NCBI GenBank assembly: GCA_014904985.1
Contig: MU129141.1
Span: 25,376 to 89,375, forward strand
Direction of reading: 5' to 3'
Source: Hydnum rufescens UP504
Taxonomy: Eukaryota > Basidiomycota > Agaricomycetes > Cantharellales > Hydnaceae
Length of the DNA stretch: 64,000 nt
Positions 19,572-31,896 of the stretch are shown piece by piece (position 1 is the first letter of the stretch; each line of letters begins with the position of its first letter). The position numbers were made by a program, and so were the translations under genes. The notes under the pieces were generated by a model. It was not told the origin of the DNA. It saw nothing but the letters and a program-made list of their open reading frames with translations, and searched no databases.

Positions 19572-19804
19572 TGTTCAAGTGGAGGAATGGGAAAGGCCTA
19601 CACAGACACCAGAGTGGAACTGAGGTAGATTTCTTAAGACTTGATGTAGCAAGAGTTATATTGAGTATCTAACTACCTGAGGTAGATTGGCTTAAGTCTT
19701 GATGTAGCAAGAGTTAAGCCATATCTGCCTCCATCACAACAACCATAAACAGGAAGCAAAAACAACAATAGCACAAACACTAATACAAGGGCACAACTTC
19801 AACA
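19572..19804 (-). mobile_element. Solo copia LTR, family 2, with 5-bp target duplication
   Basis: TGTTCAAGTGGAGG...CTTCAACA is flanked on both sides by the same five bases, GATCC (19567-19571 and 19805-19809). This is a clean target-site duplication around a single LTR, as expected after LTR-LTR recombination. It is inserted into the internal part of another family 2 element. Confidence 0.85.
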
Positions 19805-28142: not shown

Positions 28143-28830
28143 TACCATAAACAGGAAGCAAAACAAAGAATAGCACAAAACAAGTAAAACAAGGGCACAA
28201 CTTCAACATGTCTGGTTTCAGAATTTCATGTCTGAGTTAGGATATCCTCCAAGTGGTGCAATGACTTTGTGGCTTGACAATCAGTCAGCTATCAGAGTTT
28301 GGGAAGAACCCAGAGCACCATAGCCAAATGTGGCATCTGCTGCCTAAGTACTAGGGTATTGCACGGGGTTTTGAAACCCGCGGGTTTTGACCCCATGGGG
28401 GAGATCCCCGTGGGGCAGGAGGAACAATGTGGACCCATGGCTAAAACCCACCAAGAACCCGCCAACCCCGGCAATATGTACCAAGGGTTTGAATCAGTCC
28501 ATGCCGTAGATTGATAGTTGCTATGGTGCAGTTGTATTACACCAGAACTGCTAAGTTACTAGCTAATATTTTACCTCTGTGCAGTAACTTACTGTTACCA
28601 TAACTATGTCATTATTTATCACTATTTACTATTATATATACATTGTATAGCAGTAGGGGCTCAGGGAGCTCAGGATGTGGTTGGTTGTTCAGGGGGGGGG
28701 AGGTTCTAGTATGGGTTTTCATTGTTGAGGGTTTGGTTGGTTGTTCATTCGGGACTTGAGCCAGTCTCTGTCTCATGATCTGGGATCAAAGATATATACA
28801 TCAGATTGAAAAATGAAACATACATTCTAG

Positions 28831-29896
28831 TACCACACACCCGCCCAGTGGGTGTGTGGTACCTCGTTTTATTTTGACGGCAGGGTCTGTACGGGCTTGT
28901 GCCCGGTTTTTTGTATGGGGTCTTGCAGGTGCAGGGGTTCGGCGGGTGGTGTCAGTCGGATGATCTAGAATAAGTCAAAAGTGACGCAAAAAGGGCAGCT
29001 TGCGCTGCCCTTTTTGCACCACTTACATATAGAGAATTAATTTAAAAAAAAAACCTTTTAGTACCACACCCGCTCTAGTGGGTGTGGTACTCGTATTGTG
29101 CTGCTCGTGTCAATCGAGGGGTCCGTATGGGCTCGTGTCCGGTTTTTCATATGGGGGTCACAGGGGTTTCGTTCGAATCGATTCACGGGGGCGGGAGATG
29201 ATACCGTGGTCTCACGCGGATTAGGAACATCTAGAGTTTTAAAAAAAAAATGTTAGTTGCTTAAGTCGTAAAACCGGCACAAAAAGAACCACTTTCGCTC
29301 TTTTTGTGTGGGTGTATCTACCGAGGGGGGGAACTCACCTTATATAGTACTGCACACCCACCGCAGCGGGTGTGTGGTATTCATTTTTGTTTGGGGGTTT
29401 TCATTTACCGGGCGGGTGTTCGTTTTGTGGGGTGCCGCAGTGTGGGCATTGGGTCAGGTGTTTGCTCGGGGCTCATATGGATGATGGGGAGACCTATCAT
29501 AAAGTAATATGTTAGTTAAAAATAATAATAATAATGGCGCAAAAGAGCAGCTTTTGCTGCTCTTTTTGTGCCACCATAGGTATTGCAATCAAACGAAAAG
29601 TTACCTATGTTACCACACACCCGCTGCGGCGGGTGTGTGGTACTCGTTCAGCAGGCCATCGTTTGGTGGGTTATCGTCTTGAAAACCGCCATTTGGCGTG
29701 TTCTCGTTCCACGGATTGTTGTTTGGGGGGTGTTCATTTGCCGGTTCTGGTTCAGGCGATGACCTAGGATAATGTCAGTTAAAAATTAAAACCAACGCAA
29801 AAAGAGCAGCTGTTGCTGCTCTTTTTGCGTGGATGTATGTAAAGGATAAATACTTACCTCGTATGACCACACACCCGCCACAGCGGGTATGTGGTC
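28831..29896 (-). repeat. Left arm: alternating palindrome units (5 P1, 4 P2)
   Basis: P1 palindromes (ACCACACACCCGC, four loop bases, then its complement) start at 28831, 29061, 29347, 29611 and 29866. P2 palindromes (AAAAAGAGCAGC, loop, complement) start at 28983, 29277 (degenerate), 29536 and 29794. Repeat pitch is 230-294 bp. On the minus strand each P1 is followed by a GTAAGT-like donor, then P2, then a CCTAG-type acceptor, mirroring the right arm. Confidence 0.85.
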
Positions 29897-29954
29897 CTGC
29901 TTTCTGTCGTTCGATCCCTCGGTGGTTGTAGAACGACTCTCGATGCCGGCAAAT

Positions 29955-30232
29955 GCCGATATCAAGACCAAGGAAAGTGACTTCAACCAGGCACGTATTG
30001 ATGCGTGGAATTCACCTGATTACAACCTTCCTATCTATGAGCCTGGTCAGGAGGACATTGTCCGCCAAGCTCGCGGTCGCAACCTCTTCTCCACTAATGG
30101 AGAATCTCCTCGATTAATGCACTTTCGGCCATTTGTGAAGCCACGGGTGCTAATATTGATGAGACTTCCAATGCCATTGGCATGGATTCACATGTGGGGC
30201 CCAAATTCCTGGGTGCTAAGCTTACTGTATGT
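29955..30232 (+). pseudogene. Captured exons of UDP-glucose 6-dehydrogenase
   Basis: Two separate parts of UDP-glucose dehydrogenase are joined. 29970-30103 encodes FNQARIDAWNSPDYNLPIYE and DIVRQARGRNLF from the NAD-binding domain. 30109-30232 encodes [18 protein letters not shown] and [15 protein letters not shown] from the central dimerisation helix region, which lies about 200 residues further on in the normal enzyme. The two parts are in different frames, and the catalytic Cys region is absent, so there is no enzyme. A donor-like GTATGT follows at about 30232. Confidence 0.85.
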
Positions 30233-30366
30233 TTTTTTTTCTTTTTTCTTTTTTTACTAATGTATTTATTATTCTAGGTCATCGCATTACGCTCGATCGA
30301 CAGACCCACATGAACCCCCACCAGCACCCGCCAGAACTGATGACGATGATACCGGAAAAGAGGAGG

Positions 30367-31221
30367 CACCACACACCCGCTGCGGCGGGGTGTAGGTAAG
30401 TGTATTTTTTTTCATTCTTTACTAATGTATTTATTATTCTAGGTCACACTCGATCGACAGACCCGCACGAATCCCGCACTGGCACCCGCCAGAACCGACG
30501 ATGATGATTACCGGGGCGAGATACGCGAGCGCACACAGCCACACAAGACCCCAACGATCGACTATCTGCCACTAATAAAACGAGGCCTCAAATACGGTGC
30601 CACACACCCGCTTTGGCGGGTGTGTGGCAATATTAGGTGAGTATTTTCTTCATGGGGTGTACCACGACGCCAAAAGAGCAGCACCAGCTGCTCTTTTGGT
30701 GTTGCTTGTATTATTTTTTTTACTAACATATCCACTATTTTAGGCTCTTTCTCCCTCCCCGAAACCCTGCCCCAATCAAAGCAGAGACAATGCCTACAGC
30801 AAAATATGGAGCGCGCAGCCACCCAGACCCCAACCCCTGAGTATCAGCGAGCTATAACATGACGACAAATCAGATACAGCACCCACACACCCGCTTTGGT
30901 GGGTGTGTGGTGACATCAGGTATGTCTAATCCACCGGTGCCAAAAGAGCAGCAGGAGCTGCTCTTTTGGCACCCCTCTGTTTTCTTCTTTTTACTCATAT
31001 TATTTTATCATTGTTCTAGGTCCTTTCCCTAAGCGAAAACCCGCCCAACAAGGACACGCACGAGCCCTCAACACAAAATTCAATGCGCAGCCGCCCAAGC
31101 CCCAAGTCTTGAACACGACAATGGACTTAATCTCATAGCACACACCTGCCGCGGCGGGTGTGTGGTAATAGTTGTAAGTTCAATGGCGCCCAAAGAGCAG
31201 CAGTAGCTGCTCTTTGGGCAC
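30367..31221 (+). repeat. Right arm: alternating palindrome units (4 P1, 3 P2)
   Basis: P1 palindromes start at 30367, 30598, 30881 and 31136. P2 palindromes start at 30667, 30936 and 31186. Each unit reads P1, a GTAAGT/GTGAGT/GTATGT donor, P2 (absent from the first unit), a pyrimidine stretch with TACTAAY or similar, and TTCTAG or similar. A divergent 100-200 bp 'exon' follows, and then the next P1. The order is the mirror image of the left arm. Confidence 0.85.
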
Positions 31222-31896
31222 TACTTCTGTTTTTTCTAAAACTAATGTATTCTTAATCATTCTAGGTGTCCTCTCGATCTATGAAACCCCACGACAAGAA
31301 CAGAGCTGAGGTCCAAGGTGAAACACGGACCTGCGCAGCCACCTGCAACCCGATATGAACACCCAATCAAAACCCGTGTGAATGCCACCCTATCCTTGCA
31401 GCCACACATCCTGTTGCCCCTCCTTGCATGAAAACTCACCCAATGAGAACATGGCAAGGCCCCCACATGAAATCTGACTTATATTGTATATAATTATAAT
31501 AAATAAATAAATAAATGTTAAATAATCTTCTGGCCTCTTACTATGGGCCATATACAGAATAGGATGAGGATATTGTCCCATGGGTTTCCCATGGGTTCTC
31601 CTCGGGTTTTTCAACCCTGTCATGTATCCACGGCTTCTACCCCCGTGAGTCACGGGGGCGGGTTTTCAACCCCGCGGGGTGGGATGTCCTAAATTCCCCT
31701 GTGGGAACCCCGTGCAATAGCCTACTAAGTACCCTTGGCTTTGGGAACAGGTGGAGGACAAGGTGTTTTCACTTGAATATGTTTCAACTTCTTTGATGAG
31801 GGCAGATGTTCTTACAAAGCCCCTTGAGACAGTAGCCCATTCATGAGTACTTTCACTTCTTGGGCTTGTTTCTGACTCTGCTTTGTAAAGTGGGAG

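Follow-up and report, generated by a model that had tools for sequence, protein, structure and literature searches.

The window (the whole stretch of 64,000 nucleotides of Hydnum rufescens UP504 analysed here) contains a copia gene interrupted by a hAT-like element, which itself encloses a fragment of a host gene. The features of the insertion are the following.

28344-28351, + strand: left 8-bp target site duplication, CTAAGTAC, single in empty sites
28352-31724, + strand: non-autonomous hAT element of family F1, 3373 bp (10 full-length copies; empty sites)
28352-28370, + strand: left terminal inverted repeat, TAGGGTATTGCACGGGGTT
29979-30211, + strand: captured UDP-glucose dehydrogenase fragment, two host pieces joined (Pfam, PDB, host donor)
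31706-31724, - strand: right terminal inverted repeat, TAGGCTATTGCACGGGGTT
31725-31732, + strand: right 8-bp target site duplication, CTAAGTAC

The 3373 bp were measured between the duplications, so the terminal repeats are counted in that length. The initial annotation had placed the insertion in copia to the base, between two copies of an 8-bp duplication and with 19-bp terminal inverted repeats carrying one mismatch. All of this is borne out: CTAAGTAC stands on both sides, the two terminal repeats differ by one base, and 9 of 11 other copia copies align through the flanks joined at a single CTAAGTAC, as empty sites (the search gave more copia matches than the 11 compared). The insertion is thereby confirmed as real. 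The remaining two copia copies, L063 and L065, keep CTAAGTACCATTG and then continue in different sequence. In the relative L059, copia reverse transcriptase and RNase H frames, recognised by eye, flank the insertion site. The different sequence in L063 and L065 begins TGTTGGAATA and interrupts copia a few bases past the same CTAAGTAC.

Copies of the family and relatives with a hAT transposase

The initial annotation had suggested looking for second copies with the same ends, for empty sites and for a transposase-bearing relative, and all three were found. Full-length F1 copies, 3373-3415 bp long, number at least 10 in the 63.2-Mb genome of 539 contigs, counts from the genome search being lower bounds. 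The pairwise identity of 10 full-length copies is 94.3-97.3%, and seven of them (the window element and six of the nine others) have an exact 8-bp duplication. The strict F1 end pattern has 52 exact matches in the genome, and its reversed control none. The preferred target of hAT elements is nTnnnnAn; this fits CTAAGTAC and TTGGCAAT and, judged by eye, does not fit most other duplications of F1 copies.

The three full-length copies without an exact duplication are L025, L027 and L035. The first two lie ~11 kb apart in inverted orientation on one contig and have the flank TCCTTGGC in common, at opposite ends, as would result if copies had recombined; their remaining two flanks do not match. Elsewhere, at L038:667-3078, an element of 2.4 kb carries two left ends, its left 1.2 kb being present as an inverted duplication.

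When the 10 copies are compared with their majority base, 724 of 4182 CpG cells carry a C-to-T (or G-to-A) change, against 43 of 12,713 other cytosines. All remaining substitutions come to 0.32-0.44% in each of nine copies and to 1.35% in that of the window. F1 is, to judge from these alignments, a young family. After insertion its copies decay mainly at CpG, in the way that methylated CpG would decay, which hints at DNA methylation of recent insertions.

The earlier statement that the element contains no transposase stands. Pfam was run on 21 of the 23 listed frames of the element region and found no transposase in any of the 21, of which 20 were without a match and one was the UDP-glucose dehydrogenase; blastn of the element against the transposase part of L043 gave no match. 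The hAT-like assignment is upheld by the 8-bp duplications, the terminal inverted repeats and the hAT transposase in relatives with the same ends. One relative, L043 (6.04 kb), has both F1 ends, with decayed hAT-like frames on the left side and one array on the right; another, L049, has the F1 left end and transposase pieces. The first long frame begins ~181 bp inside the left end in L049 and 194 bp in L043. The hAT dimerisation region of Pfam (Dimer_Tnp_hAT) is matched above the curated cutoff in L049 (E = 2e-10) and in L051 (3e-10), and below it in L043 (0.041). A complete transposase-bearing copy with a duplication was not seen, because the right end of L049 was not found within 7.3 kb, no end was found in L051 and L043 has no matching target duplication.

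Behind the hAT transposase pieces lie fragments of CRM1/exportin-1 repeats, at L049:2474-2869 and L051:5283-5627 (Pfam E = 5e-16 and 7e-16), possibly a second host capture. The best PDB match of the CRM1 piece is 4fgv, which we take to be the Chaetomium protein, with E = 6.5e-22, the next being 1.8e-12; this match and the short introns point to a fungus.

Predicted exon-intron arrays and their hairpins

Both arms of the window element are arrays directed outward from the centre, with two kinds of hairpin, P1 and P2, as listed here.

28780-29857, - strand: left array as a whole, five predicted introns
29857-29764, 29604-29494, 29338-29231, ~29054-28965, 28823-28780, - strand, read outward: predicted introns of the left array
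near 28832-28862, 29062-29091, 29350-29379, 29612-29641, 29866-29895, - strand: P1 hairpins of the left array (28832-29895)
near 28986-29017, 29278-29312 (decayed), 29538-29570, 29793-29832, - strand: P2 hairpins of the left array (28986-29832)
30227-30277, 30396-30442, 30637-30743, 30920-31019, 31174-31265, + strand: predicted introns of the right array (30227-31265)
near 30368-30395 (cut short), 30599-30628, 30882-30911, 31137-31166, + strand: P1 hairpins of the right array (30368-31166)
30667-30702, 30936-30973, 31186-31221, + strand: P2 hairpins of the right array
31266-31520, + strand: predicted terminal exon of the right transcript, AATAAA-rich near 31498 (from sequence only)

The initial annotation had described a fold-back layout, with two inverted arms of palindrome-bearing units around host exons. 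The layout holds; of the exons, the UDP-glucose dehydrogenase piece stands, whilst the other exon-like blocks have no coding signal. Going beyond that description, we predict the arms to be exon-intron arrays with a hairpin at each exon end and another in most introns; we also find that the arrays are not confined to F1 and that the hairpins number thousands in the genome. In the left array the donor of the intron at ~29054-28965 is decayed, the outer three P1 are shortened or decayed and the outermost intron is without P2; in the right array only the last three introns have P2, the two inner ones having none. Hairpins with arms of at least 10 bp number 10 in 3389 bp at the element, compared with 13 in 60,000 bp elsewhere in the window. 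Outside the element, at 19688, 20136 and 26886 of the window, are three imperfect hairpins of 34 nt, nearly identical to one another and each with 14-bp arms.

The match of the dehydrogenase fragment has E = 7e-4 in Pfam (below the curated cutoff) and 1e-8 in PDB. Its probable donor is C35:71254-72060, where the two pieces are 572 bp apart and 92% and 95% identical to the captured ones; this locus was assumed to be an intact gene, the comparison being made from the two pieces alone. The element holds a piece of a host gene inside its ends and the probable donor locus lies elsewhere in the genome, as in Pack-type gene-capturing transposons. The element L068, on C354, has the same outer capture boundaries and a different internal deletion, so that a longer capture was probably trimmed twice. 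In L034:2125-3530 the captured piece is interrupted by an insertion starting TGTCAGGG.

In the window element the dehydrogenase piece comes after a GCCGGCAATTGCCG-like edge and runs into a predicted intron, the captured fragment being apparently the inner exon of the right predicted transcript. Edges like GCCGGCAATTGCCG are shared by the cores of L041, L042, L052 and L053, where long palindromes and TATA-like sequence were recognised by eye; we infer that the centre may be a two-way promoter.

The order of the module is T-poor exon, P1, ~8 nt, 5' splice site, P2 within the intron, branch point and 3' splice site. P1 has 13-bp arms and P2 arms of at least 12 bp, both with a 4-nt loop; the donors are of GTAAGT, GTGAGT or GTATGT type, the branch point is CTAAY-like and the acceptor YAG. 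This was determined from 160 oriented P1-P2 units in 23 of 26 scanned loci (L038 had no P1-P2 pair, and L049 and L050 no hairpins), 90 of the units coming from F1 copies or pieces; the units are kin by descent and the counts are therefore not independent. A donor follows P1 in 124 of the 160 on the sense strand and in 1 on the antisense strand (shuffle mean 10.4, maximum 21), and a branch point with acceptor follows P2 in 123 and 0, respectively (shuffle mean 26.6, maximum 38). Of the 149 units with a donor, 126 have it 6-12 nt downstream of P1, and 78 at exactly 8 nt. Intron length, where measurable, is 87-120 nt (127 of 132), and the branch point precedes the 3' end of the intron by 14-25 nt in 124 of 141.

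The exons contain 7-19% T, and no coding signal was detected in the 28, of 59 measured, that are outside redundant copies. We rejected coding exons, and with them a protein-coding repeat gene, because exon lengths modulo 3 are evenly divided (8/10/10) and open frames show no strand preference (20 sense and 19 antisense among the 28). With E up to 1, Rfam gave 8 matches, none of which reached the gathering score.

In the whole genome there are 3375 exact P2 and 2891 exact P1 palindromes, with none for the reversed-pattern controls, and a P1 arm is followed by GTRAGT at 6-11 nt in 1576 places (control 2). Among the first 50 P2 places of the list, from C1 and part of C2, an exact P1 stands no more than 300 bp away in 32. 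An exact end, either of F1 or of a second family called F2, lies at most 6 kb away in 41; the exceptions are eight places at C1:89-105 kb and the site C2:7607. For the F2 end, CAGSCTGGTCAGYCA, the genome gave 826 matches (control 0). One F2 element, L066:3073-6718 (3646 bp), has GAATGCGT on both sides and an array inside; the F2 duplication is known from this one element, and F2 has no assigned transposase. L052 starts with the F2 end at 611, the point at which the repeat homology changes. Both F1 and F2 carry arrays, so that two families or more with 8-bp duplications share the module. L066:450-2400, which lies between the F2 element and an F1 right end, contains coatomer gamma-like frames, recognised by eye.

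Outside the source genome, P2 was found in 5 stretches of viral_contigs and in at least 119 of genome_contigs, nearly all of the matches listed being a single site in a bacterium; our guess is that these are transcription terminators or chance. P1 had 0 matches in viral_contigs.

Hairpins as RNA or as DNA

Between units of different loci the identity is 0.88 in the P1 arms and 0.91 in the P2 arms, with 0.48 and 0.58 in the intron flanks (shuffled 0.41 and 0.54) and 0.62 in the exon (shuffled 0.59), as calculated from 500 sampled pairs and 54 units. The stems covary more than in either control. In P2 there are 63 double-change cells (shuffle mean 27.7, best slide 14) from 69 of 70 rows, the dropped one having run off its locus. 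P1 has 34 (shuffle mean 11.6, best slide 13) from 62 of 70 rows, the eight with shifted or damaged arms having been dropped, a choice that favours pairing. The P2 loops contain 147 A and 18 T on the sense strand (70 units, 24 distinct loops). The same bias is seen beyond the analysed loci, with 33 A and 5 T at 15 of the 30 listed sites outside L052 and L053, the 15 being those with P1 at the right distance. GNRA loops occur in P2 14 times in sense and 0 times in antisense. The P1 loops show no clear strand bias, UNCG-type loops numbering 15 in sense and 9 in antisense. RNA hairpins are favoured over DNA sites because hairpins and splice signals are conserved together, the stems covary and the P2 loops are A-rich in sense. 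We read both P1 and P2 as RNA hairpins, P2 more firmly than P1.

Two other comparisons speak against this reading. As a test of strand, stem mismatches gave no signal, G-U and A-C numbering 29 and 23 in P1 and 28 and 33 in P2, without RNA-like bias; CpG decay may hide such a bias. In silico folding gave a donor access of 0.33 (0.34 with the hairpins scrambled) and a branch-point access of 0.57 (0.61 scrambled), and the idea that the hairpins expose splice sites was rejected, the hairpins having no effect on either.

The best of the alternatives, though an unlikely one, is that P1 and P2 are DNA sites, either targets of a dimeric protein, for instance the transposase, or cruciforms that aid transposition or replication, with the splice signals a by-product of the multiplied unit. 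Both arms of the palindromes are indeed equally conserved, the mismatches are without strand bias and the hairpins are located within elements with hAT-like ends. A DNA site does not, however, account for P2 loops that are strongly strand-asymmetric, or for a distance from hairpin to splice site that stays fixed while the neighbouring sequence drifts, and a dimer site needs no complementarity in the outer, variable part of P2. Moreover, no P1 or P2 was found in 7.3 kb of L049, or in the 3.8 kb that follow the left end of L043; the hairpins are therefore dispensable at that end of transposase-bearing relatives.

It is rather less probable again that the arrays are passive and without function, having arisen when slippage multiplied a spliced 3' region belonging to an old transposase gene, and with their palindromes kept perfect by template switching at hairpins. 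Palindromes in general are prone to duplication and self-correction, the array of L043 follows the transposase frame in the same direction, and L038 is itself a 1.2-kb inverted duplication of its left half. Drift, however, would not hold the arms at 0.88-0.91 while introns and exons are near background, and would keep neither the donor distance nor the A-rich loops. We give very little credence to the idea that the P2 introns are introner-like elements, spread as introns and gathered in transposons by chance: many introns here do share a hairpin, and fungal introner-like elements have internal symmetry or stable predicted structure according to the part of PMC8469720 available, but P1, which is outside the intron, is copied along with the P2 introns, 41 of the 50 P2 places listed lie near F1 or F2 ends, and C2:7607 is the sole fully isolated P2 among the matches listed.

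Proposed explanation and known systems

With a probability of about 0.6, we propose that a hAT carrier mobilised in trans bears two divergent, non-coding spliced units, whose hairpin module acts as RNA and is kept in at least two families. The element most likely encodes two divergent, spliced, structured non-coding RNAs, as far as can be judged from its sequence. Relatives that share its ends would have supplied the transposase for its movement in trans. The two transcription units of the element would start near the centre and be spliced outward, with P1 staying in the spliced RNA and P2 leaving with the intron, and a sequence-specific factor would read both RNA hairpins during transcription and splicing. 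At least two hAT-like families would have retained the module and increased its number, and the captured dehydrogenase fragment would have become the inner exon of the right transcript.

A broader claim, towards which we are slightly more doubtful than not, is that this is a new class of transposon-encoded structured spliced non-coding RNA, with phased hairpins in exon and intron (the intron hairpin with an A-rich or GNRA loop), a dedicated factor and ~3000 units in several hAT-like families, perhaps serving as a shield of transposon transcripts from splicing-linked silencing or as a control over the splicing of the element out of host transcripts. The notion of a splicing shield against silencing draws on reported work on stalled spliceosomes in Cryptococcus. 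If transcribed, the arrays would be a natural library of variant introns for the action of exon and intron hairpins in splicing, and would allow one to ask whether a transposon uses splicing against silencing. It also appears that a hAT element has taken a captured host exon into the transcript predicted for it.

As a carrier, the element belongs to a known kind of transposon; its cargo is of no kind known to us. In its 8-bp duplications, short terminal repeats and lack of a transposase of its own, the element resembles the Ds-like non-autonomous hAT elements, and its relatives share the left end and have hAT transposase; it differs in that its interior consists of two outward arrays of predicted introns with paired hairpins. 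We know of no hAT element of such build, nor of a transposon family with hundreds to thousands of hairpin-phased introns in non-coding sequence, and no element of such build was found in the accessible portions of the open-licence literature.

Galileo, a fold-back element of the P superfamily, likewise has large inverted arms round a middle and rearrangements between copies, as described in the available text of PMC4168063, whereas the window element has 8-bp duplications, hAT relatives and arms that consist of predicted exon-intron units. Pack-TIR elements and transduplication also involve a host fragment captured between ends and multiplied (PMC8277862, PMC3538342, in the parts available); in the window element the captured piece takes up little room next to the hairpin arrays, to which a splice donor apparently joins it. 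Introner-like elements and symmetrical stwintrons are, from the same portion of PMC8469720, alike in their many related short introns with internal symmetry; the arrays here differ in being multiplied mainly as whole exon-intron arrays in transposons and in having a second, exonic hairpin.

The P2 at C2:7607 lies without a listed P1 or an exact transposon end within 100 kb, and is a candidate for an intron outside the arrays.
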